From Lactobacillus sp. ESL0680 (lineage in GTDB: Bacteria > Bacillota > Bacilli > Lactobacillales > Lactobacillaceae), in NCBI RefSeq assembly GCF_029392855.1, contig NZ_CP113945.1, positions 1,612,001 to 1,676,000 on the forward strand: DNA of 64,000 nucleotides. Reading direction: 5' to 3'. The position numbers were made by a program, and so were the translations under genes. Of this stretch, positions 2,866 through 18,010 are shown in pieces; position 1 is the stretch's first letter; each line of letters begins with the position of its first letter. The notes beneath the pieces are model-generated. The model was not told where the DNA came from. It searched no databases and worked only from the letters and a program-made list of their open reading frames with translations.

Positions 2866-5347
<2,482 letters not shown>

Positions 5348-5359
5348 TTGCGCTCCTTT

Positions 5360-6064
5360 CTATAAAGCTGACATAATATCATGCTCAGTATCCTGTTTAA
5401 CTTCTAATTCAACCGTAGTAGTTTTAACTTCGAGAAAACCATATTGGCGCGATTTTGAAGCAAATGAGATTGCCCGATCCTTCACCAAAGTATCTGTTTT
5501 ATTAGCATCAGGTAGCAAATCAGCATCTGCAATAATTTCTGCTCTAAATGCAGCACGATTTTTTTGCCGCTTCTGATACCATTTTGAAGCTTGCCAAGGC
5601 AGGTTACTTAATACAGAAACCGGGTCGCCATCTATCATCGCCATCTGTAAAGCACCTGCGGGAACGTTGGCACGCCGTCCTAAGAACAACGCATAATGGG
5701 GATGTTTTAAAGCTGAGTGAATTTGCTCAATAGCAGCTTCATCGCCGCCAACAGCAGCAACAAAAACAGCATCTTGCAAGTAGTCACGGTAAGTGACTTT
5801 TCTTCCTTCTTTCCATTTAACTGTTTTAAAATGAGCTGTTTGAAAATCAGTTAGAGTTATTCCGCGCTGGTCAATACGAACCGCAAATTTCAAATCATTC
5901 AACTGCTCAATTCGCTTGTCATCACGACTATAGCCTAAGGCTGCCGCAATCATCCCAATTACCGCACTTTTTGACGGATAATCACCTGTCGTCCGCCGCT
6001 CAAAAGTCGCTTCATTACCATAAGACTGCAAAGGTGCAGTCAGCCTAATCGTTAGTGTCTTCAT
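5360..6064 (-). CDS. cas5e: Cas5e Cascade subunit
   Basis: 234 aa RAMP protein that caps the crRNA 5' handle in Cascade. The start MKTLTIRLTAPLQSYGNEAT and FERRTTGDYPSKSAVIGMIAAALG are signature Cas5e sequences. The C-terminus ends EVKQDTEHDIMSAL. The coding start lies inside the end of cas7e (20-nt overlap), so translation is coupled and stoichiometry probably lower than that of Cas7e. No sign of damage. Confidence 0.95.
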   Translation of the reverse strand: MKTLTIRLTAPLQSYGNEATFERRTTGDYPSKSAVIGMIAAALGYSRDDKRIEQLNDLKFAVRIDQRGITLTDFQTAHFKTVKWKEGRKVTYRDYLQDAVFVAAVGGDEAAIEQIHSALKHPHYALFLGRRANVPAGALQMAMIDGDPVSVLSNLPWQASKWYQKRQKNRAAFRAEIIADADLLPDANKTDTLVKDRAISFASKSRQYGFLEVKTTTVELEVKQDTEHDIMSAL

Positions 6065-7145
6065 CTTGCATCGCCTTTGTTAAAGCTGCAGATACTTGAT
6101 CTAATAATTCAGAAAAATCAGCAACTTTTGCAAATTTCCCACCTTCTTCTCGTGAAAAGACAACATTTAGTAGTGGCTTTTCTAGGATGTCATTAGTGGT
6201 ATCATATTCACCCTCTAATTTTTGAATAGACTTTTTAACAAAGCCGCCTCTAGTCATAACCGGCTCTTCAAAAGCCGACACCAAATTAACCGGTGTATCT
6301 GAACGCAAGGTAATCATAATATAGTTAGGCACTGTCTTATTGGCAAACGTGTTTTGCTTACCTGTTGGCATTGATAGGGCAAAAGCCTTAACGAACGCAA
6401 TAATACTTTGAACAGCATCATGGTCGCCCAAATTTTTAGCCAATTCTTTAACATTGATATTTGCATAGCGATATAAGGTTGCAGAATCATATTCAATCGT
6501 TCCCAGCATTGCGGCACCGTTAGTATCATCTGGTTGCAAATCATCTAGCGCTGTGAAGTAGTCATATTCTGGAACAATTTCATGTGTTGAAATTGCATGA
6601 GCAACTTGAGCTGCTGCGTCAACATTTAATTCAGGATTATCCGCAACCATGCGACCAAACAAAGCCAAGTCTAAGGAATTATCTTCTTTCAAGATTTGCT
6701 TAATTTCTTTTTTGGTATCTTTATCATCCAATTTGTCATGAGTAAGAGCATACTGTGCTAGTTTGTCAATTTGACCGGGGCTAACTAGCAAGAGCGCACC
6801 TGTTAAATTCTTATCTGTCTTCTTATCTTTTTTAACTTTAATTCCTGCAGCAGTTAAAATCGCGATTGCTTTATCCATTGCCTTGTCTTTGGCCAAAGAA
6901 CTATCCAAGCTCTGCAATTTTTGTGCTAAAAATTCGGCAACTTCCTTAGTTCTTGTTCCAACCGAATCACTTTCGTCTCTAAAATAATCACGCATCGCCT
7001 TTTTCCAACTTTGCGAAGAAACACGTGCTCGCGTAACACCACCGTACATCGCCGTCTTAGGTGCACCCGTATCATCACGGTTAATATTAGAAGCCGGCAC
7101 TGTTTGTAAAACATTCAAGTCAAGATATAAATTTTTGTTAGTCAT
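6045..7145 (-). CDS. cas7e: Cas7e Cascade backbone subunit
   Basis: 366 aa. Six copies coat the crRNA spacer in Cascade. Landmarks are NLYLDLNVLQTVPASNINRD, GGVTRARVSSQSWKKA, SLDLALFGRM and STHEIVPEYDYFTALDD. RBS GAAGGAGA lies before the ATG, 5 nt after the cas11 stop. This is the member of the pair that sits in the complete operon; the diverged relative lies at 1-610. The C-terminus is acidic (MQDEDTND). Confidence 0.97.
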   Translation of the reverse strand: MTNKNLYLDLNVLQTVPASNINRDDTGAPKTAMYGGVTRARVSSQSWKKAMRDYFRDESDSVGTRTKEVAEFLAQKLQSLDSSLAKDKAMDKAIAILTAAGIKVKKDKKTDKNLTGALLLVSPGQIDKLAQYALTHDKLDDKDTKKEIKQILKEDNSLDLALFGRMVADNPELNVDAAAQVAHAISTHEIVPEYDYFTALDDLQPDDTNGAAMLGTIEYDSATLYRYANINVKELAKNLGDHDAVQSIIAFVKAFALSMPTGKQNTFANKTVPNYIMITLRSDTPVNLVSAFEEPVMTRGGFVKKSIQKLEGEYDTTNDILEKPLLNVVFSREEGGKFAKVADFSELLDQVSAALTKAMQDEDTND

Positions 7146-7150
7146 TTTAA

Positions 7151-7774
7151 TTATTCTCCTTCAATTTCTTTATTCGAGTTAGCTACTTTAAAATATTGTT
7201 CGCCCCATGACAAGCGAACTTTGCCAGCAGAATGATAATTTTTTTGAAAATCATATAAATCCTGAGCTAATAAAGGATAATCAATCTTTGATGTTTGATT
7301 ACTGGCCTTTAGGATTTCTACTAAATGCGTTAACGAATTAATCACACTATTAATATTATTTGTGGCTAATAACGGTTGGATGCGTCGAGCCAAAGCCACT
7401 TTAACATCTTCATCCGCTCTTAATTTGGCAAGCGCGGAAAACAAGCTTACACCATCAGCTTTTTTAATCTTATTTTCTGCAGAATCACCATAAACTGATT
7501 CATCCCTGCCTTGCTGATGAATCGCATAAAAACGTACCGCAGCAAAAACCGCAATTTCACCACTAGTTGGCTCACCATTTTTACTCAAAAATTGTTCTGG
7601 TAAATGTTTCATTAATAATGGCAAAACATTCTGTGCCCGTTGACTTGTAATCGTTGCAGCACTTCGCAAACTTGCTAAAGCAGCTCTGTCCAAATTACCA
7701 TCATCATAAAGTTCGTCGATTATTTTAGCTGTTACTTTTCTTATTGCATAATCATATTCCATGTAAGTCATCAC
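7151..7774 (-). CDS. cas11: Cas11e (Cse2) Cascade small subunit
   Basis: 207 aa, mainly helical. The small subunit dimer lies along the Cascade belly and stabilises the R-loop. Recognised by position between cas8e and cas7e and by the Cse2-like central region (VRFYAIHQQGRDESVYG, SLFSALAKLRADEDVKVALARRIQPLL). The start overlaps the cas8e stop by 4 nt. MMTYMEYDYAI offers three nearby ATGs; the first is nearest the overlap and was kept. Confidence 0.93.
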   Translation of the reverse strand: MMTYMEYDYAIRKVTAKIIDELYDDGNLDRAALASLRSAATITSQRAQNVLPLLMKHLPEQFLSKNGEPTSGEIAVFAAVRFYAIHQQGRDESVYGDSAENKIKKADGVSLFSALAKLRADEDVKVALARRIQPLLATNNINSVINSLTHLVEILKASNQTSKIDYPLLAQDLYDFQKNYHSAGKVRLSWGEQYFKVANSNKEIEGE

Positions 7775-9483
7775 TCCTTTTTGAACATTGTATTAACCCG
7801 ATATCTAAAGTAATCGTTAATCGTAAAGATATTTCTCAGACCCTTATCGGTAAAAATTCCTTTTTGATCGCGTGATGAACTGGTATCCATAACCTTCTGG
7901 GCTTCAATAAAAGCATGCTTTCTGAGCTGTTTCTCCCAAAGAAGAAGCTTTTCCCCATGCTCATCTTGATTAGTTAATCCTGCAAGCCAATCTTTAAACG
8001 GCTGATTTAACCCATAATAGAACTTGGAACTTAAGCGATTAGCAAACTCCTTAAGTGAATTATCCTTAAATCCGCGAATTTCACCAACATCCCGAGCAAA
8101 CTGCCAAAAGTATGTGCCAACTATCTGGGTCTCTTTAATCATTGCTTCAATTTGTGCTGGCCAACAATTTTCACTATCTTCATCAAAAAGAACATCGGCA
8201 TTAATACTCATATCATCAACAACTTCAGCGACTGGTGACTGCGATGTCGCATTACCATCATCAATTAAGTCCACTGATGCCAGTGTCAATAATTTATCAC
8301 GTGGAATTGCTGTCTGCCCTTTAAGTAAACGAAGCCAAACAACAACTCCTGGCTCACTGTTATTATGAGCCTTGTTAGCATTAACGTAATTACCAAAGTT
8401 GCGCCACATTGCCTTACCTAATGACTGCAATCCTCTGACTGCTGGCCGATAAGCCGCTGTCTTTTTATCATATTTCCAGACAGTCATTGGTTCAATCATT
8501 GCGTTATCACTGACGATTTTTGGTAATCCTGCACTAAAGATGGTTGGAACGCCATCCTCATTCCATTCGATATGCAAAATTCGTGACCAACTTGTATACA
8601 ATTCTGCAATGTTATTTGGTAAAAGATTTTTCTTGCGTTCAGCAATATACTCTTTTGCACTTGAATATTCCCAGACCGGTCTTTGAGGTGCCGGTTCTTC
8701 TTGACCAAATAAGACTAGGTTTAACATTAAAGTTTCAAAGAGCGTCTTACCTTGAGCAAAAACCGGATTTAACTTATACAGCCAACCAGGTGAAACTGAA
8801 AATTTATCATCAGCCTTAATCTTGGTTTTATCAGTTACACCCGTAAAATTCTGGTACGTAATCAGCCATCTAACCAATTCATCAACTGCAATTTGGTTTT
8901 TACTTTCACCAGCTTTTGGTGCAAAAAGTGCAGGTGTATTGTTACTTTCAGAAATCCGGCGATTAATTTGCTTAACTGCTACTGTTCCTGTACCTTTAGC
9001 GACTACCTTATTGGCTGGCACCAATTCGTCATATTCAGCTTTGGTCACTTGATAAAAAGGATGTTCGCCAAAGAAAGCAAATTTATCAGAGTAATGCTCT
9101 AAATACTTAATGACAATATCTGTAAATTGACCTTTTTGGTATAACTTTTGCCAAGTTTTTACTACTGTCTGTTTAATACGACTCTTAGGATAAAATTTAA
9201 TTATCGTAGCATCTGACAAAAATTTCTCGGTACCATTTTCTAGCCATTCATAAGGTTGGCCATCTGCATCAAAACGCGAATACACCGTTGTTAAAATTGC
9301 TAATAACAGTCGCATAACTGCCAAATCTTGTGCTCGCATTTCACCAGCTAATTGCCGGTAATTTTGGGCATTTTTAAATAATTCAATTAAAGACACTTTT
9401 TGCTCTCGACCGGTTTGTTGATCGATTACTTTAAGCCAAGAATCTGTAACTAGATTAAAGTTTTTTTCAATCATCATCATCAT
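7771..9483 (-). CDS. cas8e: Cas8e (Cse1) Cascade large subunit
   Basis: 570 aa at the longest start. Cas8e recognises the PAM and recruits Cas3. Family features are NLVTDSWLKVI at the N-terminus, the FFGEHPFYQV region, and GVTDKTKIKADDK. The N-terminus reads MMMMIEKNF. Four ATG codons overlap the GAT repeat encoding the last Asp residues of Cas3 (17-nt overlap), with AAAGGA just before. The third or fourth ATG (9477 or 9474) best fits ribosome spacing. Confidence 0.95.
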   Translation of the reverse strand: MMMMIEKNFNLVTDSWLKVIDQQTGREQKVSLIELFKNAQNYRQLAGEMRAQDLAVMRLLLAILTTVYSRFDADGQPYEWLENGTEKFLSDATIIKFYPKSRIKQTVVKTWQKLYQKGQFTDIVIKYLEHYSDKFAFFGEHPFYQVTKAEYDELVPANKVVAKGTGTVAVKQINRRISESNNTPALFAPKAGESKNQIAVDELVRWLITYQNFTGVTDKTKIKADDKFSVSPGWLYKLNPVFAQGKTLFETLMLNLVLFGQEEPAPQRPVWEYSSAKEYIAERKKNLLPNNIAELYTSWSRILHIEWNEDGVPTIFSAGLPKIVSDNAMIEPMTVWKYDKKTAAYRPAVRGLQSLGKAMWRNFGNYVNANKAHNNSEPGVVVWLRLLKGQTAIPRDKLLTLASVDLIDDGNATSQSPVAEVVDDMSINADVLFDEDSENCWPAQIEAMIKETQIVGTYFWQFARDVGEIRGFKDNSLKEFANRLSSKFYYGLNQPFKDWLAGLTNQDEHGEKLLLWEKQLRKHAFIEAQKVMDTSSSRDQKGIFTDKGLRNIFTINDYFRYRVNTMFKKE

Positions 9484-12226
9484 CCTTTGTATAACTTAAA
9501 CCAAACTGCTCAGAATACTGCAATGTCCACTTACCAAGAGTAGTTGTTAAATTCTCATCTAATGGCAAGGCTAAGGCACCCTTAAGCCAAACACTATTTT
9601 GCCAATCGTCACAGTATTTATCAGTAAGTTCTTCTAAGCGTTTAATTACCGCTTCAATTTCATTAGCATACTGGGTAATTGCAGTTGGCAACTTAATTAC
9701 TTGCTCTGAAATATCATAGTCTGAAACCTGAGCCAAATTTTGACCATTAATTAAGAAATTACCCTTAGTTGTATGCTTAACTAAGATAACTTCAATTGTT
9801 TCCTGAATATCACGGACAGACGCACTAGCCTTTTGTTCATCCTTATCCACATCTAATTGGTCATAATTCAACCAGCCATGAATTGATTCTTCAGGATCAG
9901 GATCATCAATTTGAAAATCACCGGCTTTTTGTTCCTCTTTTTCAATATAAAGGTTAAATTCTTTTTTTGCTTTTTCAATTCCATTAATTTCAAAATCAGT
10001 TTTAGAATTATAAACTTGTTGGACAAGATTAGAAATATCATCTGGTAAAGTAATCTGCTCTGGCAAAAAGTGATCCGTCTTCATCAATAAATATTTGTGA
10101 TAAATGCTTTCATTAGCTGGACCATAATCACCAAAATCATTAATCCCCATTACATAGAGTTGTGGCTGCTCCAAATTCTTAGGTCTAACTATTTCATGTC
10201 GATGTAGCCGGCCTGCACGCTGCAAAATCAAATCAATTGGTGCAATATCCGTATAAAGGACATCAAAATCAATATCCAAAGATTGTTCTAAAACTTGGGT
10301 ACCAATTACAACCAATTTTTCTGGTCGCTTACTTTTTTTATCAATTTTACCAATCGCACCTTGCAATTTTGTTTCCTGCTTTGTTCGCTCTGGTGCCAAA
10401 AAAGCAGAATGTAAGACAATTAATTCGACATCTTCTTGCGCAACTAGTTTAGCCAATGATTGCGCGCGTTTAACCGTGTTAACAATGACACCTGCTACTC
10501 CCCCTGCTTTTATCTTGTCTAAAATAGCAGCTACTAATTCATCATCAGGCAAATTAATTCTGCTAACTTGCAGCTTTTGTGTTTTCTGGTCGCTTTGACC
10601 GGGAAATTCTGAAATTTGTTTTAATTGACAGCCATCAAGAATACTTACTAATGGATATGCTTGATTGTTTTCCCAATCAGCTGGTGCCTTAAATTTTAAA
10701 GCAAATTGCCAGCCATACTTACCAATTAAATATGATTGTATCAATAACTTTCTTTTTTCTGTTGGTAATGTTGCTGAGAGAATAACAATCGGAACATGAT
10801 ATGTACCTAACCATCTAATTGCCTTATACAAATATTGACTCATGTAGGCATCATAAGCATGGACCTCATCAATCACGACTACTTTGCCGCTCAGTCCTAA
10901 ATGCTTTAAGAAAAGGTGCTTCTGCTTTAATCCCATTGAAAGAAGGTTGTCAATCGTGCCAATTGTAAACTTAGTTAAGATCGACTTTTTCCCAGAAAAC
11001 CAACTATTAACTGTGATTGCTCCCTTATCTGTATCATCTACCACATTTTCGGCATCAGGTAGCTTTTTATATTCATCGTTAAATATTTTTTTACTGTGCA
11101 TTAAGTCAACTGAAAAGTCGCATTTTTGTTCAGCAGATAATTTTTGCAGCCAATGTTTAACTCGGCTAAACATTGCATTACTAGTTGCCTGCGTCGGCAG
11201 ACCCATAAATAAGCCATCTGCACCGGTAATATATGCGAGCTGTTCAACAGCAACTAAGGCTATCTCGGTTTTGCCTAGCCCCATAGGTGCTTCCACAATA
11301 ACCATTCCTGGATCAGTTGTTTCACCAATTGCTTTAGTTATTGTTCTTTGAACAGGTCTTGCTTCAAATTCCCATCTCTTTTCATACGGATCAGTTGCTT
11401 CAGAAACTTTTTGCGGCTCCCATTCTTCGCTAAGGTACCAATTATGCATTGCCTTTTCAAAACGTTCTTCCATATTTAAATCATGCCAAGTTTGATCTAA
11501 ACCAATTAATGGAAAGAGGTCTTCGCCATTATGGGTGTGTTCACTTGAAGCCAGCCAATCTGCCATAATAATTAAGCCTTCTAATATCACAGCTTGCGGC
11601 TGAGTAATGTTCGGTATATCAGTGGCACTTTCATAACCCGCTGTTGCTAAACCGTAGTCAAATAATTCTTTTTGAACCTGCTGCCAAGGCCTTTGTAGGG
11701 CTTTATTTTGATCGCTTTGGTAATAATTAGCTTTTTGGTTTCCAATTTCATTATACGGGGCATCTGCTTCTGGCTTACCATGATGGCCGCCAATTAATGC
11801 AGCAACATTTTCAGGCACGCCAAATTTTAATAATAAGGCCTCTCCAGCTCGATTATGAGGAGATTCTTTTCGCAAAGGCAATTGCAAATCATCAAGATCA
11901 GAAAACCCCTGCCTTATTAACTTTTCAATTAATTCAGAATCCAAATTTTTATCATTGGCATATGATTTTTTAGTTTGAAAAGCTGGGGTGGACTTTCCGA
12001 TATCATGGATAAAGCCCAAAAACTTAATTAATTTATGAATTTCATCATCAGATAAATCGCCCTTTAAAAATTGGCGCTGATTATCAGACAGCCATTGATT
12101 ATATAAGAAGTTAATTACATTTTTAGTATCCGTTAAATGAGCAATCAATGGTAACCAACACTGTTGACCGTTTTCGGTGTTTTTCTTACCCCATAGGGCT
12201 AGAGTCTTGTTTGATAATGCTGGCAT
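9467..12226 (-). CDS. cas3: Cas3 nuclease-helicase
   Basis: 919 aa. Cas3 degrades DNA once Cascade has formed an R-loop. HD-nuclease residues are H30, HD at 74-75 in GFIHDIGKST, and GGHHGK around 147-151. Helicase motifs are EAPMGLGKTE (Walker A, 312-321), DEVHAYDA (453-460), ILSATLP (483-489) and QRAGRLHRHE. The order is the usual HD, RecA1, RecA2, C-terminal domain. RBS AAGGAGG lies 5 nt before the ATG. It ends in five aspartates that share bases with the cas8e start. First gene of the operon. Confidence 0.97.
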   Translation of the reverse strand: MPALSNKTLALWGKKNTENGQQCWLPLIAHLTDTKNVINFLYNQWLSDNQRQFLKGDLSDDEIHKLIKFLGFIHDIGKSTPAFQTKKSYANDKNLDSELIEKLIRQGFSDLDDLQLPLRKESPHNRAGEALLLKFGVPENVAALIGGHHGKPEADAPYNEIGNQKANYYQSDQNKALQRPWQQVQKELFDYGLATAGYESATDIPNITQPQAVILEGLIIMADWLASSEHTHNGEDLFPLIGLDQTWHDLNMEERFEKAMHNWYLSEEWEPQKVSEATDPYEKRWEFEARPVQRTITKAIGETTDPGMVIVEAPMGLGKTEIALVAVEQLAYITGADGLFMGLPTQATSNAMFSRVKHWLQKLSAEQKCDFSVDLMHSKKIFNDEYKKLPDAENVVDDTDKGAITVNSWFSGKKSILTKFTIGTIDNLLSMGLKQKHLFLKHLGLSGKVVVIDEVHAYDAYMSQYLYKAIRWLGTYHVPIVILSATLPTEKRKLLIQSYLIGKYGWQFALKFKAPADWENNQAYPLVSILDGCQLKQISEFPGQSDQKTQKLQVSRINLPDDELVAAILDKIKAGGVAGVIVNTVKRAQSLAKLVAQEDVELIVLHSAFLAPERTKQETKLQGAIGKIDKKSKRPEKLVVIGTQVLEQSLDIDFDVLYTDIAPIDLILQRAGRLHRHEIVRPKNLEQPQLYVMGINDFGDYGPANESIYHKYLLMKTDHFLPEQITLPDDISNLVQQVYNSKTDFEINGIEKAKKEFNLYIEKEEQKAGDFQIDDPDPEESIHGWLNYDQLDVDKDEQKASASVRDIQETIEVILVKHTTKGNFLINGQNLAQVSDYDISEQVIKLPTAITQYANEIEAVIKRLEELTDKYCDDWQNSVWLKGALALPLDENLTTTLGKWTLQYSEQFGLSYTKDDDDD

Positions 12227-12248
12227 GCTTGCCTCCTTGTTTAAATTT

Positions 12249-12270
12249 AATTTTAATATTAATAATTAAG
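12249..12270 (-). other. Candidate target of the upstream pseudo-spacer, at the cas3 transcription start
   Basis: This 22-nt stretch of the cas3 5' UTR matches the pseudo-spacer at 12390-12411 at 18 of 22 positions in the same orientation. In guide numbering, positions 2-9 and 11-18 are uninterrupted matches; 1, 10, 19 and 22 differ. The adjoining trinucleotide on the minus strand is TAA (12271-12273), close to the AAA motif inferred from overlapping spacers in array 1. It lies just downstream of the -10 box at 12279-12284. The region is AT-rich, so chance similarity is not excluded. Confidence 0.5.
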
Positions 12271-12278
12271 TTACTTTA

Positions 12279-12307
12279 AATATATACCCATAAAAATAAA
12301 ATTGCAA
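12279..12307 (-). promoter_or_regulatory. Promoter of the cas operon
   Basis: TTGCAA (12302-12307), exactly 17 nt, TATATT (12279-12284) on the minus strand. The expected start is near 12272, giving a 5' UTR of about 45 nt with AAGGAGG before the cas3 ATG. It is the only good sigma-A-type pair close to cas3. Confidence 0.7.
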
Positions 12308-12318
12308 GCGCTTTTCAA
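12302..12318. promoter_or_regulatory. cre-like sequence overlapping the cas -35 box
   Basis: TTGCAAGCGCTTTTCAA contains the AAGCGCTT core of CcpA catabolite-responsive elements, with one extra base relative to the 14-nt consensus. It overlaps the -35 hexamer, so CcpA binding would repress cas transcription. The imperfect spacing keeps this tentative. Confidence 0.35.
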
Positions 12319-12326
12319 AATGATTG

Positions 12327-12440
12327 TAAATAAATAGGCTATGACATTACGTAATAGCCTATATCACCCCCCACTTATGTGGGGAATACCATATTAATAT
12401 TTATAATTAACGGATGACCCTCATATACATAAGGAATACA
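12327..12440 (-). ncRNA. CreR-like mini-CRISPR RNA upstream of cas3
   Basis: Degenerate repeat 1 (12412-12439) keeps a 6-bp stem CCTTAT/ATGAGG (one G-U) with a 4-nt loop and handle GTCATCC. A 22-nt pseudo-spacer follows (12390-12411). Degenerate repeat 2 (12361-12389) keeps the stem CCCCAC/GTGGGG with loop ATAA. Then comes a perfect 9-bp inverted repeat ATAGGCTAT/ATAGCCTAT (12354-12362 and 12334-12342) and a TTTATTT tract. A consensus -10 box lies 7 nt before repeat 1. The unit has everything needed to yield one Cas6e-processed guide, and the guide resembles the cas3 start site. Published CreA/CreR RNAs share this layout. Alternatively it is merely a decayed array. Confidence 0.6.
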
Positions 12441-12446
12441 TCTTTA

Positions 12447-12452
12447 ATTATA
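12447..12452 (-). promoter_or_regulatory. -10 box of the CreR-like RNA
   Basis: A perfect TATAAT on the minus strand ends 7 nt before degenerate repeat 1, so transcription would begin at the repeat itself. The -35 is weak: TTTTTA at 16 nt or TTTACA at 14 nt. Between here and the terminator at 12594 I see no gene. Confidence 0.5.
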
Positions 12453-12593
12453 ACATCTTTAAATAATGTAAAAAGTTAAGACTGTCTCAACAGAACGAGG
12501 AGTATTTGCATAAAAAATCATCAAGCCAAATCATATATTGTTGTAAATAATTATGAGCTTTAGAATATTTCATAAACTATACCAATTGAAAAA

Positions 12594-12615
12594 AGCCCAG
12601 GAAAACCTAGACTTT
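12594..12615 (-). terminator. Terminator of toxin module 1
   Basis: On the minus strand GTCTAGG-TTTT-CCTGGGC (with G-U pairs) is followed by TTTTTT, just after the tiny toxin stop codon. Confidence 0.65.
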
Positions 12616-12626
12616 TAACAGCTGAA

Positions 12627-12728
12627 CTACTTACGCAGTTTGTCAATAATGTCTTTGACATCATCGAGTACATCTTGAGCTTTTACAAACACAAGATACA
12701 GCACAATCAGAGTGACTAAATCTAGCAC
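12627..12728 (-). CDS. Tiny hydrophobic toxin-like peptide, module 1
   Basis: 33 codons from GTG (12728) after AAAGGAGGTGAGACTC. The peptide starts MLDLVTLIVLYLVFVKAQDV; one membrane-spanning N-terminal half is followed by a charged amphipathic tail ending DKLRK. This resembles Fst/Ldr-type type I toxins in size and layout, but I do not assign it to a named family. The leader RNA folds a hairpin (12747-12765) just before the RBS. A small RNA is transcribed divergently at 12830-12924. Related peptides occur at 12965, 38805, 39161 and 39553. Confidence 0.75.
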   Translation of the reverse strand: MLDLVTLIVLYLVFVKAQDVLDDVKDIIDKLRK

Positions 12729-12829
12729 GAGTCTCACCTCCTTTAAACAAGCTGACTGGGCTTGTAAAAAGTGCGCACTAACGTGCTTTTTTATTTTACC
12801 AGATTCTTAAGCTGTGGTATACTTCAGTT

Positions 12830-12924
12830 ACAATCAGATAAATCTCAGCACGAGATACTTAACGTGCATGCAAGTTGACTACTTGCAAGGCGCCTGGGGC
12901 GGTCATAACGACCGTCTTTTTTAT
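12830..12924 (+). ncRNA. Candidate antitoxin RNA, module 1
   Basis: Promoter TTACCA (12796-12801), 16 nt, TATACT (12818-12823). The RNA holds TAACGTGC (12860-12867), identical to 12779-12786 in the toxin leader DNA, and CAAGTTGACT (12871-12880), matching CAAGCTGACT at 12748-12757. Because the toxin is read from the other strand, these repeats make the two RNAs complementary over 8 and 10 nt. It ends with CGGTC-ATAAC-GACCG and T6. The toxin promoter -10 (ATTTTA, 12793-12798) overlaps this -35. Confidence 0.65.
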
Positions 12925-12926
12925 AC

Positions 12927-12959
12927 AAAAATAGCTCAGGGAAAACCTGAGCTATTTTG
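12927..12959 (-). terminator. Terminator of toxin module 2
   Basis: AAATAGCTCAGG-TTTT-CCTGAGCTATTTTTG on the minus strand, a long perfect hairpin with T tract directly after the module 2 toxin. Confidence 0.7.
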
Positions 12960-12964
12960 CTGTT

Positions 12965-13066
12965 TTACTTGAACAACTTATCTAAAAACTCAATGAGTTT
13001 ATCAAGAATTTGTTCTGTCTTGGTCAAGACAATGTTAAACAATATTAGGATAATGATTTCGTACAC
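12965..13066 (-). CDS. Tiny hydrophobic toxin-like peptide, module 2
   Basis: 33 codons from GTG (13066) after AAGGAGGTAAGAGC. The peptide starts MYEIIILILFNIVLTKTEQI and ends DKLFK: a hydrophobic half, then TKTEQ and an amphipathic tail. It has the same layout as module 1 but a different sequence, closer to module 4. The leader hairpin GGAAG...CTTCC lies at 13084-13101. Its partner RNA is at 13166-13262. Function is inferred from arrangement only. Confidence 0.7.
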   Translation of the reverse strand: MYEIIILILFNIVLTKTEQILDKLIEFLDKLFK

Positions 13067-13165
13067 GCTCTTACCTCCTTACTGGAAGCTGGTCAACTTC
13101 CTAAGATGTGCACATTGTGTACTTTTTTATTTTAAGAAATTTAGTAAACATGGTATACTTAAATG

Positions 13166-13262
13166 AATTAGGATAATGTGTTCTACACGTTCACATTGTA
13201 TGCAATGCAAGTTTGGTCACTTGCAAGGCGCCTAGGGCGGTCATAATGACCGTCTTTTTTAT
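13166..13262 (+). ncRNA. Candidate antitoxin RNA, module 2
   Basis: -10 TATACT at 13154-13159, -35 TTTAAG 17 nt upstream. It carries CACATTGT (13192-13199; toxin leader 13111-13118) and TGGTCA in the hairpin GCAAG...CTTGC at 13207-13224, matching TGGTCA in the toxin hairpin. The terminator is a GGTC/GACC hairpin plus T6, near-identical to that of module 1. Confidence 0.62.
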
Positions 13263-13307
13263 ACTACAAAAGTAATGTTAATATACACATTGTTATATAA
13301 TATTGTT

Positions 13308-13446
13308 GTAAATAAAAAGGAGTTCTACTGGTAACAAAACTTCTTAAACATAAGCTTCCGCCTTCAAAGAGCGGTGGTCGAAATTATAGTTTAACTAGAA
13401 GGCTATCCCATAACTTGCCAAAGTTTATATGTGGGATGCTTTTTTG
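13308..13446 (+). ncRNA. Orphan small RNA related to the antitoxin RNA at 15023
   Basis: -10 TATAAT at 13296-13301. The RNA shares with 15023-15150 the start GTAAATAAAAAG, the hairpin beginning GCTTCCG, and AGTTTAA near its end. The terminator is CTATCCCATAA...TTATATGTGGGATG followed by T6 (13403-13446). No hydrophobic reading frame faces it here, so the partner gene seems to be lost or this RNA acts alone. Confidence 0.5.
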
Positions 13447-13479
13447 TTTCCAGAAAGAAATACATGACTTGTAACTCAA

Positions 13480-13507
13480 AATCAATCTCCACGCATGTGA
13501 GGAATAC
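13480..13507 (-). repeat. Solitary degenerate CRISPR repeat
   Basis: CCACGCATGTGAGGAATAC matches the array-2 repeat type; the other half is eroded (AATCAATCT for GGATCACCC, one extra base). No neighbouring repeat lies at 61 bp. The rest of 13447-13560 shows nothing recognisable. Confidence 0.7.
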
Positions 13508-13560
13508 CAATTTACTAAACTTGGGTAACCAACAGGATAAACTAGGTTAGATATACAATT

Positions 13561-14556
13561 TTAGTAATCTAAATTAGCGATAAACATTGTTGTTACTACA
13601 GGATCATCACTACCATACATACCTGCAAAACCGATAGAAACACCAATTCTTGTACACTCTGAATTTTTTAACAAATCTCTATGACCCCAATTTGCACTTG
13701 CATCATTATAAATAAACTCATTAAAAGCATCATCGGCTAAATCATTAGGATTTCTAGTTAAAACTTCGCCAGTTTCTACTTCTCCGTGAGCACTAATTGA
13801 TCCATCAGGGCGAGTATGCTTATCGCTGGTGTGGTATTTTTCGTGATAGTTGCCGGCTTCAATTGCTCTTTGAGTGGCGTAATCATGTAATTCGGGATTA
13901 ATAGTAAGTGGTTTAATATCGGCTTGAGCACGCCAATTATTTACATCTTCCACAAATCTTTTTTCGACTGCTAGTTTGTAATCTGTTGTAAGCATATCCT
14001 TTGTTGGTGCTGCAGTTTGTGTATTGTTTTCTGAATTACTTGCTGCAGGCTTATTTGTGGAATCAGTAATGTCCATATCAGGATCAGGGACAGATTTAAT
14101 CCATTTGCTTTCACCAATTCTGTACCAAGTCATTCCGTCACTGGTAATCATTGTTTCATAAATTTTATTTTTACCGGTCACCCATAATTGTTGCTTCTCA
14201 CCATTTGGTTTCAGGTAAACTTGGCGACTGTCATCTATATTTATGTATGAAGTTGTGTCTGTTACTTTTTTAGTGTTTGCTTGTTTAATGTAACGATTCT
14301 TTTTGAGCTTTAAGTAATTTTTACCGTTAATTTTTTTAGTGGCGGCAATTTTTTGCTTAGTGCCCTTTTTTAATGAAGGGCCACTTACTTTATGTCCAAT
14401 AGAGTTATAAATATAACTGTTGTGTGTTAAAAGAACTTGGTAGGTGCTGGCTGCAAAAACCGTATTCTGGTTGTTTGATTGAGCATTGCTTAAGCCCACT
14501 AAGCCCAAGGCTAAGGTACTGCTGGCAATAAATTTAAAATACTTACTTTTTTTCAT
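13561..14556 (-). CDS. Exported SLAP-domain protein with C-terminal CAP/SCP domain
   Basis: 331 aa. Residues 1-36 form a signal peptide (MKKSKYFKFIASSTLALGLV, ending VFAAS). Residues about 38-150 are SLAP-type repeats (HNSYIYNSIGHKVSG, KKINGKNYLKLKKNRYIK, GMTWYRIGESKWIK) that bind lactobacillar cell walls. After a Ser/Thr/Asn-rich linker, residues 195-331 are a CAP domain with EDVNNWRAQADIKPLTINPE, HEKYHTSDKHTRPDG and NWGHRDLLKN. CAP domains of this kind are common in surface proteins of lactobacilli; the activity is unknown. It stands alone. Confidence 0.88.
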   Translation of the reverse strand: MKKSKYFKFIASSTLALGLVGLSNAQSNNQNTVFAASTYQVLLTHNSYIYNSIGHKVSGPSLKKGTKQKIAATKKINGKNYLKLKKNRYIKQANTKKVTDTTSYINIDDSRQVYLKPNGEKQQLWVTGKNKIYETMITSDGMTWYRIGESKWIKSVPDPDMDITDSTNKPAASNSENNTQTAAPTKDMLTTDYKLAVEKRFVEDVNNWRAQADIKPLTINPELHDYATQRAIEAGNYHEKYHTSDKHTRPDGSISAHGEVETGEVLTRNPNDLADDAFNEFIYNDASANWGHRDLLKNSECTRIGVSIGFAGMYGSDDPVVTTMFIANLDY

Positions 14557-16082: not shown

Positions 16083-17940
16083 GGTTAACTTCCACACACG
16101 TGAGGAATACTTGTTCTTACGTTTTTTTGCCTGTGTTTGAGTAGGATCACCCCCACTCACGTGGGGAATACAACAAAAAATGGAACGATTTACTGAAAAA
16201 GTTAGGATCACCCCCACTCACGTGGGGAATACTGGAATTTATACTATCAAAATTCAATACGTCTAGGATCACCCCCACTCACGTGGGGAATACCACTTTT
16301 AAAAAAATGAAAGAGTATATCGTCAAGGATCACCCCCACTCACGTGGGGAATACATACCTTTGATATCCAATACTGCTTCTCCAACAGGATCACCCCCAC
16401 ATACGTGGGGAATACGCGGTTAGCCATATACGCTTGCCATTTTCTTTGGGATCACCCCCACGCATGTGGGGAATACCTCTACGTTGCTGCCCTATTCCTG
16501 CTTCATTTAGGATCACCCCCACGCATGTGGGGAATACCTCTACGTTGCTGCCCTATTCCTGCTTCATTTAGGATCACCCCCACGCATGTGGGGAATACCA
16601 AACTGATATGCCGGCTGAGGAATATCCTAAGGGATCACCCCCACGCATGTGGGGAATACATAACACCTTGCCCCAGACAAACACCATTATCAGGATCACC
16701 CCCACGCATGTGGGGAATATGATAAGTTCCAGGAAAAATATCGGCCACATCAAGGATCACCCCCACGCATGTGGGGAATACAAACCGCTCTAGTTTTGAT
16801 CTGCCCACCCATAAGGATCACCCCCACGCATGTGGGGAATACTACAATTCCTTTTAATACCTTAATCCACGTCTGGGATCACCCCCACGCATGTGGGGAA
16901 TACACTCGTTAGTAACTGAACTGCAGCAGTATCATAGGATCACCCCCACGCATGTGGGGAATACGGAGGTTTTAGGAACACATAAAGGGAAAATCAAGGA
17001 TCACCCCTACGCATGTGGGGAATACTGTAAAGCATCTAAACCTTTAGATAAATCTCAAGGATCACCCCCACGCATGTGGGGAATACTATGATTACATGTG
17101 AATTTTGTGGACAAGAACAGGATCACCCCCACGCATGTGGGGAATACGGAGGTATAGCAATGACTGAAGAAAAGAGAATAGGATCACCCCCACGCATGTG
17201 GGGAATACAGGCTAAACAAGAAACTATTCTAAAGCCACAAAGGATCACCCCCACGCATGTGGGGAATACTTTACTAATACAACAATATCTCATTCAATTA
17301 TAGGATCACCCCCACGCATGTGGGGAATACATTATATTCCGCATTATTATGTTGAAGATCGTAGGATCACCCCCACGCATGTGGGGAATACTTTTAAGCT
17401 TGGCGTTTGTAGCAAAAATTTTCAGGATCACCCCCACGCATGTGGGGAATACACCATCTTTGGCTAATGTTATTGGTCCAGCTTAGGATCACCCCCACGC
17501 ATGTGGGGAATACACTCCGTTCTGTAAATTGTCTAAAGTATACCAGGGATCACCCCCACGCATGTGGGGAATACGTCGACGAGTTCCCAAATCCAAACCA
17601 TCTTTAGGGATCACCCCCACGCATGTGGGGAATACTTTATTTTGCATGGCAATGTTTTTAACTGTGAAGGATCACCCCCACGCATGTGGGGAATACCTTT
17701 AGAGTACTAATTTTTATTCCAGTTCTATGGGATCACCCCCACGCATGTGGGGAATACGCCTCTTCTTCTCTTTTTCAAACTGTAAACACAGGATCACCCC
17801 CACGCATGTGGGGAATACATGATGCTAAGGGAGTGCCGTTAGATCAAGATAGGATCACCCCCACGCATGTGGGGAATACAGTCTTGAGATTGAAATACAA
17901 GTAAATCCATCAGGATCACCCCCACGCATGTGGGGAATAC
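16083..17940 (-). CRISPR. Type I-E CRISPR array 2 (31 repeats, 30 spacers)
   Basis: Period 61, repeat 28 bp, spacers 33 nt. From 16449 on repeats carry the CGCATG loop type; the older ones at 16144-16327 carry CTCACG, one (16388) CATACG, and the leftmost (16083) is degenerate, so the leader is on the right. Single-base variants occur at 16720 (final C to T) and in the repeat at 16998. Spacers 16477-16509 and 16538-16570 are identical neighbours. The spacer 16721-16753 is identical to 1922-1954 in array 1. The spacer at 17148 holds a GGAGG plus ATG gene start. Confidence 0.98.
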
Positions 17941-18010
17941 AGTAAAAGATCCCAGTCATAGCAGCATCCTCAAAAAGAAGAATATACTTTTTTCATTAGT
18001 TTGTAAATTT
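17941..18010 (-). promoter_or_regulatory. Leader of CRISPR array 2
   Basis: The array-1 leader blocks recur at the same distances: AGTAAAAGATCCC (17941-17953), AGCATC (17963-17968), CATTAGTTTGT (17994-18004). The last is coding sequence of cas2 beside array 1 but noncoding here. A possible promoter is TTTACA, 17 nt, TATTCT on the minus strand within this segment. Confidence 0.7.

Follow-up and report, generated by a model that had tools for sequence, protein, structure and literature searches.

The window, a stretch of 64,000 nucleotides from the single-contig, 1.71-Mb genome of Lactobacillus sp. ESL0680, carries on its minus strand a full type I-E operon extending from cas3 (12226) to cas2 (2866), with a gene order by NCBIfam matches (cas3-cse1-cse2-cas7-cas5-cas6e-cas1-cas2) that fits the subtype. 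The genes are cas3 (9467..12226; top model match Cas3e), cas8e (cse1; 7771..9483), cas11 (cse2; 7151..7774), cas7e (6045..7145), cas5e (5360..6064), cas6e, which encodes the predicted processing enzyme (4709..5347), cas1e (3759..4709), and cas2e with a fused DnaQ-like exonuclease domain (2866..3762). Repeat analysis places the CRISPR array on the same strand at 16083..17945 (approximate limits), with a period of 61 nt comprising a 28-nt repeat, most frequently GTATTCCCCACGCATGTGGGGGTGATCC, and a 33-nt spacer. In a scan of genome contigs, the cas3 of Lactobacillus sp. ESL0679 (L003) was found to be 88% identical to that of the window.

Upstream of cas3, also on the minus strand, lies a mini-CRISPR unit (12334-12452) that opens with a TATAAT and continues with two degenerate type I-E repeats around a 21-nt guide, followed by a hairpin. 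These elements had been pointed out in a sequence-only reading of the window, with the 22 nt between the repeats (12390-12411) taken as the pseudo-spacer, and are all present. The TATAAT (12447..12452) is preceded by TG-N, as in an extended -10 element, and is spaced 7 nt from repeat 1; an exact TATAAT 7-14 nt 5' of repeat 1 is found in 8 of 19 units, a raw count without a shuffle control. Repeat 1 (GTATTCCTTATGTATATGAGGGTCATCC, 12412..12439) retains 5.5 of 6 stem pairs and 6 of 7 handle bases; for repeat 2 (GTATTCCCCACATAAGTGGGGGGTGATA, 12362..12389) the counts are 6 of 6 and 1 of 7. Cas6e is established in E. coli to cleave at the 3' base of the repeat stem, and because of this cut site, the 28-nt repeat, and the 61-nt period, the nucleotide after the repeat is assigned to handle position -1. 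The predicted 8-nt 5' handle is therefore GTCATCC plus G 12411 (12411..12418), such that the processed RNA would begin with GUCAUCCG and continue into a 21-nt guide, or pseudo-spacer (TTAATTATAAATATTAATATG, 12390..12410). The 113-nt unit RNA folds with a z score of -3.0 against shuffles; its centroid structure holds both repeat hairpins and the terminal hairpin, and its minimum-energy structure pairs the handle with the end of repeat 2. The terminal element (12334..12362), a hairpin followed by UUUAUUU, had been called terminator-like; the hairpin is borne out by folding and is a possible terminator, but its U-run is weak and a terminator scan of 12230-12520 called none. Two degenerate repeats around a pseudo-spacer near a cas operon are a defining trait of CreR elements, and this is the arrangement found in the mini-unit.

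The single best match of the guide among 47,949 positions (both strands of the surrounding 24 kb) is a site on the minus strand at 12249..12269, with a score of 14/15 when guide positions 6 and 12 are masked. Guide positions 1-8, 10-17, 19, and 20 match this target, including 16 of the first 17, and positions 9, 18, and 21 are mismatched. The sequence-only reading had counted 18 matches in 22 against 12249-12270, which is correct. The match exceeds chance: it is the best in 24 kb, AAYTTAATTATNAATATT has one mismatch-free occurrence in the 1.71-Mb genome, at the target site, and guide and target covary in relatives. The guide is AT-rich, and two further genomic sites are one base off the 18-base pattern, one of them (L145) inside a small ORF called by eye. 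Two details of the earlier count change with the register. Because G 12411 is the last handle nucleotide, the mismatch formerly assigned to guide position 1 falls within the handle and position 1 is matched, and the PAM becomes AAC (12270..12272) instead of an adjoining TAA.

The target begins approximately 3 nt past the predicted cas3 transcription start and is at most 43 nt away from the start codon of that gene. The predicted promoter comprises a -35 hexamer TTGCAA (12302..12307) and a -10 hexamer TATATT (12279..12284) separated by 17 nt. Location of the target at the cas3 start, as originally proposed, is thus upheld by consensus match but weakly, with three such sites in the region compared with 2.1 expected in shuffles, and the promoter placement is tentative. 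Limited PAM-proximal complementarity to the cognate cas promoter, another trait by which CreRs are recognized, is seen here for this predicted promoter.

Several other features surround the unit. Overlapping the -35 hexamer is a sequence at 12302-12316 (GAAAAGCGCTTGCAA) that resembles a catabolite-control (CcpA cre) site, and a similar sequence is present at the same place in L058, L059, and L060; sugar supply may also influence cas expression via this candidate cre site. A tandem pair of ORFs encoding small hydrophobic peptides of 36 and 33 aa lies on the minus strand at 12627-12737 and 12965-13066. Approximately 150 nt upstream of the respective ORFs are 54-nt blocks (12881-12934 and 13219-13272) that are 91% alike and whose plus strand has a hairpin with a T-run. 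The arrangement resembles a duplicated Fst-type type I toxin-antitoxin pair; one of the two peptides had no match in NCBIfam or Pfam, and Rfam (E up to 0.1) gave no match over 12200-13600. A lone degenerate repeat, GTATTCCTCACATGCGTGGAGA, at about 13486-13507 (minus strand) has no recognized partner and sits between the mini-unit and a SlpA/CAP-domain gene (13561-14556).

We surveyed the Lactobacillaceae for comparable units. A cas3 search returned matches in 25 of 75 genomes of the genus (E up to 0.001, partial and distant matches included) and 74 of 397 genomes of the family (E up to 1e-60), and in the Bacilli at large in 2 of 398 genomes, counting that of the window itself (E up to 1e-80). 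The 87 loci with a located cas3 correspond to 86 stretches of up to 20 kb and the first 24 kb of the window; loci of four genomes of the genus (G051, G032, G043, and G067) and of G203, which offered no upstream sequence, were left out. Two such loci, L029 (G032) and L006 (G051), contain units of known families by eye and stand outside all counts.

Curation with guide positions 6 and 12 ignored yielded 26 guide-target pairs belonging to 21 guide families, and the remaining 61 loci had no curated pair within the sequence searched, which was 24 kb for the window and at most 20 kb for every other locus. Twenty-two two-repeat units scored at least 13/15 in a whole-locus scan, from which L081 was removed as array-like. 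Added by judgement were L074 and L076 (11/15 but with a full seed) and L135 (12/15), and L068 (opposite strand) was taken in by eye. L067 came from a scan of its own cas3 region, and its repeat 2, which failed the filter and has a poor register, was set by hand. Undecided units, kept outside the curated set, are L063, L084, and L140 (12), L072 (11), and L129 (10); L063 is a good-looking unit with a cas3 leader match no higher than 10/15 and a best match of 12/15 at -676. The remaining two-repeat units, at 12 or below, had the appearance of array pieces or chance and were not curated.

Guides match their own loci far more often than control comparisons do. In the whole-locus scan, 22 of 58 two-repeat units score at least 13, 15 of them 14-15, compared with 4/174 and 0/174, respectively, for shuffled guides. 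When each of 3011 repeat-like candidates was compared with its own cas3 region, AA being required, 16 reached at least 13/15 versus 1/3011 with a random other locus. A seventeenth candidate of this test, L136 at -178, is a terminator palindrome and was dropped. In a seed-only test of 1807 candidates, 8 of which went unscored, 15 of the remaining 1799 matched at 10/10, compared with 2 of 8995 control comparisons; at least one of the 15, L066 at -229, is an artefact of register within an ordinary array. Upstream of cas3 there are 43 solo repeat-like elements, whose guides we compared with every position of their loci, no PAM being required. The cas3 5' region was unbeaten in 19 of the 43, and in 17 of these AAC or AAT adjoins the site (14 unique best matches and 3 tied with one other place); L069 and L138, which share their best score with 13 and 6 other places, respectively, lack AAC/AAT and were left out of the 17. 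A single degenerate pattern of the window's guide family had no matches in viral contigs, and distant blastn against phage and plasmid records gave none.

Alignment of the curated pairs reveals a shared pairing rule. Positions 1-5, 7, 8, 11, and 13 have zero mismatches in all 26 pairs, whereas position 6 is mismatched in 14.7 and position 12 in 14 of the 21 families, bearing in mind that both were masked during curation. Mismatches occur in 2 to 4.7 of 21 families at positions 9, 10, 14, 15, and 16, and in at least 11 of 21 from position 17 onward, where pairing fades. The same pattern emerges without the mask: 18 of 58 units have no more than three mismatches in 17 positions, compared with 0/58 for shuffled guides, and these mismatches fall at positions 6 (10), 12 (9), 9 (4), 15 (2), 16 (3), and 17 (8), and nowhere else. 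With positions 6 and 12 masked, the units carrying no more than one mismatch increase from 5 to 15; masking any other two positions six apart leaves them at 5 or 6, and no shuffled guide qualifies under any of these masks. In I-E Cascade the base at every sixth position is flipped out (PMC5904413), and because the mismatch-tolerant positions coincide with these bases, the reader of the RNA is most likely Cascade rather than an antisense partner. In addition, 24 of 26 curated targets have the same sense as the cas transcript, with which such a guide is unable to pair.

A non-consensus PAM had been listed as a weak point of the window's match, an objection that the family largely dispels: AAC or AAT adjoins 26 of 26 curated targets (13 each) and the 17 best matches obtained with no PAM required, and the last PAM base of the unmasked selection is C in nine cases and T in nine. 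This agrees with the array, where the 29th nucleotide of 2426 repeats is T in 1512, C in 854, A in 44, and G in 16. By analogy with E. coli, and provided that the last PAM base is kept as it is there, this suggests that AAY is the acquisition PAM. At the last handle base, 15 of 26 curated mini-units have A or G, compared with T or C for 2366 of the 2426 repeats from arrays.

Guides differ among families, each matching a promoter region of its own locus beside AAC/AAT, and near relatives have compensatory changes in guide and target. The guides of the window and L058 differ at positions 6, 14, and 15, and the target is changed identically at all three, so that the independent drift of pseudo-spacer and cas3 leader named beforehand as a sign against the proposal is not observed. 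Relative to L059, the guide differs at 3, 6, and 11; the target follows the changes at 3 and 11 but not the one at 6, and the targets have an additional difference at 9, a guide position that is mismatched in the window, L058, and L059. In the pair L074 and L076, with seven guide and eight target differences within 17 positions, 4, 7, 8, and 10 are compensated and the uncompensated differences are at 6 and 14-17. L071, L073, and L075 share a constant guide, and their targets differ at 6, 12, and 16 only. The compensation, the 21 families, and the unmasked selection together amount to the guide/cas-promoter co-evolution expected of a functional CreR.

The two repeats have fared differently across units. 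Among 18 units, repeat 1 retains a mean of 6.7 of 7 handle bases (a feature on which the units were selected) and repeat 2 a mean of 2.4, with 5.8 and 5.6 of 6 stem pairs kept, respectively; conservation of the handle in repeat 1 and its loss in repeat 2 are as expected if the middle RNA alone matters. Guide length is bimodal. The short 22-nt spacer, previously seen as a weakness, belongs to a class of 21-23 nt that comprises 13 of the 25 measured curated units, the other 12 being 32-36 nt long, and no guide falls between the two classes although 17-39 nt were searched (the 25 are the curated units other than L068, and include L067 with its hand-set repeat). The gap of approximately 12 nt may correspond to two Cas7 footprints.

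Curated targets are mostly close to cas3, with 19 of 26 no more than 300 nt upstream of it, 3 before cas8e, and 4 farther upstream. In L069, L118, and L142, the unit lies between cas3 and cas8e (cas8e by eye), roughly +2766 to +2970 relative to the start of cas3, and its target is directly 5' of cas8e, an arrangement that may give Cascade its own control in some lineages. Transposase-like genes (by eye) intervene between the pair and cas3 in L115 and L135, as does a PF07929 gene in L128; unit and target are not neighbours in L134, and in L060 the unit is in the opposite orientation with its guide still matching the cas3 leader. We placed promoters for 24 targets by the best-scoring site within ~75 nt, predictions that have no control and carry little weight; on this basis 16/24 targets reach into the interval between -12 and +20 relative to the predicted start, and in 7/24 the first 17 positions end upstream of -12, six of these beginning at -40 to -57.

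Two loci have units associated with other genes. In L079 (-5837 to -3978 from cas3), the guide matches with 14/15, on the opposite strand, directly 5' of a 381-aa membrane-protein-like ORF, which had no Pfam or PADLOC match and is possibly a CRISPR-controlled cargo gene. In L129, a mini-unit is followed by a PemK/MazF-like gene (PF02452) and then cas3 (about -941 to -148 from cas3), and 10 of the first 11 guide positions (6 being mismatched) match a site running into the unit's own repeat 1 from upstream, making it a candidate CRISPR-restrained toxin of CrePA-like type.

The mini-unit of the window is very probably real, and we consider it highly probable that its crRNA-like guide brings Cascade to the cas promoter with pairing too short for Cas3, resulting in autorepression of the cas genes. 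Transcription of the unit would start directly upstream of repeat 1, and Cas6e would cut the base of both repeat hairpins to leave a handle-guide-hairpin RNA that is loaded into Cascade. We predict that this complex binds the start of the cas3 promoter via the AAC PAM and 17 guide positions, with position 9 unpaired, and occludes RNA polymerase, while the R-loop, for want of longer pairing, neither locks nor activates Cas3. Repression of the operon would be proportional to free Cascade and would be released when array crRNAs or anti-CRISPRs occupy the complex. The pairing of 16-17 bp is just under the minimum of 18-25 bp that robust interference and priming need in E. coli (PMC5904413). Other E. 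coli observations count against this mechanism, namely that promoter repression by Cascade drops sharply with six PAM-distal mismatches, that off-target Cascade binding is transcriptionally inert, and that position 6 matches above chance (PMC5904413). Further points against it are the 61 of 87 loci in which the search yielded no curated pair, the mismatch at guide position 9, the AT-rich guide, the good-looking L063 unit with its poorly matched cas3 leader, and the weakness of the promoter and terminator calls.

Other readings of the locus are conceivable. Its anatomy equals that of two-repeat creA genes, as described in PMC8501985, two small hydrophobic ORFs adjoin the unit (12627-12737 and 12965-13066), and in L129 a PemK/MazF-like gene stands between such a unit and cas3, so that the RNA might be a CreA-type antitoxin repressing a hidden toxin instead of cas3, as in CreTA/CrePA modules. 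The target, however, is at the predicted cas3 start, within 43 nt of the start codon, the hydrophobic ORFs are on the far side of the unit, and 22 of 26 curated targets are cas3 or cas8e leaders. Moreover, 12230-12458 contains no ORF of at least 20 codons on the cas strand, a search that a creT of a few codons would escape, and we regard a hidden toxin as very unlikely. Even less likely is that Cascade, once led to the cas promoter by the guide, serves there in something other than repression, such as priming or activation. The seven of 24 targets ending upstream of -12, where bound Cascade need not block polymerase, would fit such a role, but the 16 of 24 overlapping -12 to +20 do not (predicted promoters, no control in either case), the pairing is below the 18-25 bp reported to be needed for robust interference and priming in E. 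coli (PMC5904413), and CreR RNAs repress (PMC13131331).

Least likely of all is a dead array remnant whose match to the cas3 leader reflects chance AT-rich resemblance or an old promoter duplication. Degenerate repeats, an AT-rich 21-nt guide, and a weak terminator are what such a remnant would have, but covariation, 21 guide families, and an AAY PAM in 26 of 26 pairs are not, and mismatches cluster at 6, 12, and the distal end, whereas neutral decay of a duplicate would spread them evenly. On the strength of the alignment, this explanation is already contradicted.

Autorepression by a CreR-like guide also has precedents. The primary CreR paper is said to be that of Liu et al. in 2023, and mini-arrays of mostly type I systems, with stand-alone repeats and spacers partly matching cas promoters, were reportedly described by Shmakov et al. 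in the same year (NAR gkad495); the window's unit resembles the latter in both respects. A more distant parallel is tracr-L of type II-A systems, a natural RNA guide with shortened pairing that makes Cas9 an autorepressor; the shortened pairing is shared, whereas effector, RNA, and origin are not. The CreR-like interpretation offered by the sequence-only reading is well supported, at the level of sequence, by covariation and by the recurrence of the pairing rule in other guide families; the repression that it includes, and the release upon Cascade depletion, are predictions. CreRs are crRNA-like RNAs from mini-CRISPRs that autorepress type I-B, I-E, and V-A cas genes via partial promoter complementarity (PMC13131331), respond to crRNA load and anti-CRISPRs (PMC12737573, PMC12948488), and are usually without a coupled toxin gene (PMC12737573). 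The window's unit shares this origin and complementarity and, by prediction, the repression, and no ORF of at least 20 codons occurs on the cas strand at 12230-12458, although a toxin of few codons would go unseen.

CreA of the haloarchaeal type I-B CreTA module is similar in having two divergent repeats, an 8-nt handle, and a seed of positions 1-5 and 7-11 with 6 and 12 free, the same two positions that are free here (PMC8501985). CreA represses a toxin RNA gene, whereas the window guide matches the cas3 promoter region instead, and inclusion of 7-11 in the essential CreA seed (PMC8501985) makes the window's mismatch at position 9 count against the proposed mechanism. Because I-E CreRs and the CreA seed rule have already been published, the window locus appears best filed as a CreR-type element whose general principle is known. 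What may set this group apart is its occurrence in I-E systems of Lactobacillaceae, guides of 21-23 nt in 13 of 25 units, and the aiming of some at cas8e. We found no Lactobacillus CreR, nor this unit, in the open-licence literature searched, and likewise no family-wide alignment, no two guide lengths, and no cas8e-directed units. Family-wide covariation, two guide lengths ~12 nt apart, and cas8e-aimed units are thus additions to the known CreR picture.

We tentatively propose, at somewhat short of an even chance, that Lactobacillaceae use a miniature Cascade for self-control, with fewer Cas7 subunits, that binds the promoter without licensing Cas3. About half of the guides are ~12 nt shorter than array spacers, equal to two 6-nt modules, which would predict two fewer Cas7 subunits and a lock on the promoter with 16-17 bp that gives Cas3 no licence. 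Full-length guides would achieve the same result by ending complementarity near 17, and guide and target would have been repeatedly re-invented (21 families) under a constant 5+5+5 pairing rule. In type I-F1, spacers shortened in 6-nt steps still permit R-loop formation without triggering cleavage (PMC7296934), although a shorter spacer gives weaker binding of the complex, which counts against the autorepression proposed above; type I-E is described there as less strict than I-F1 (PMC7296934).

With the alignment of natural guides and targets, what began as one suggestive match becomes a testable rule for the whole family. It indicates how much pairing is tolerated when Cascade acts in regulation (6 and 12 free, a stop near 17) and which pairing is to be avoided lest Cas3 be triggered, and the two guide lengths provide a direct test of the R-loop length separating binding from cleavage. 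The rule also predicts how lactobacilli would hold their I-E systems down and how the activity of these systems may be boosted for genome editing.
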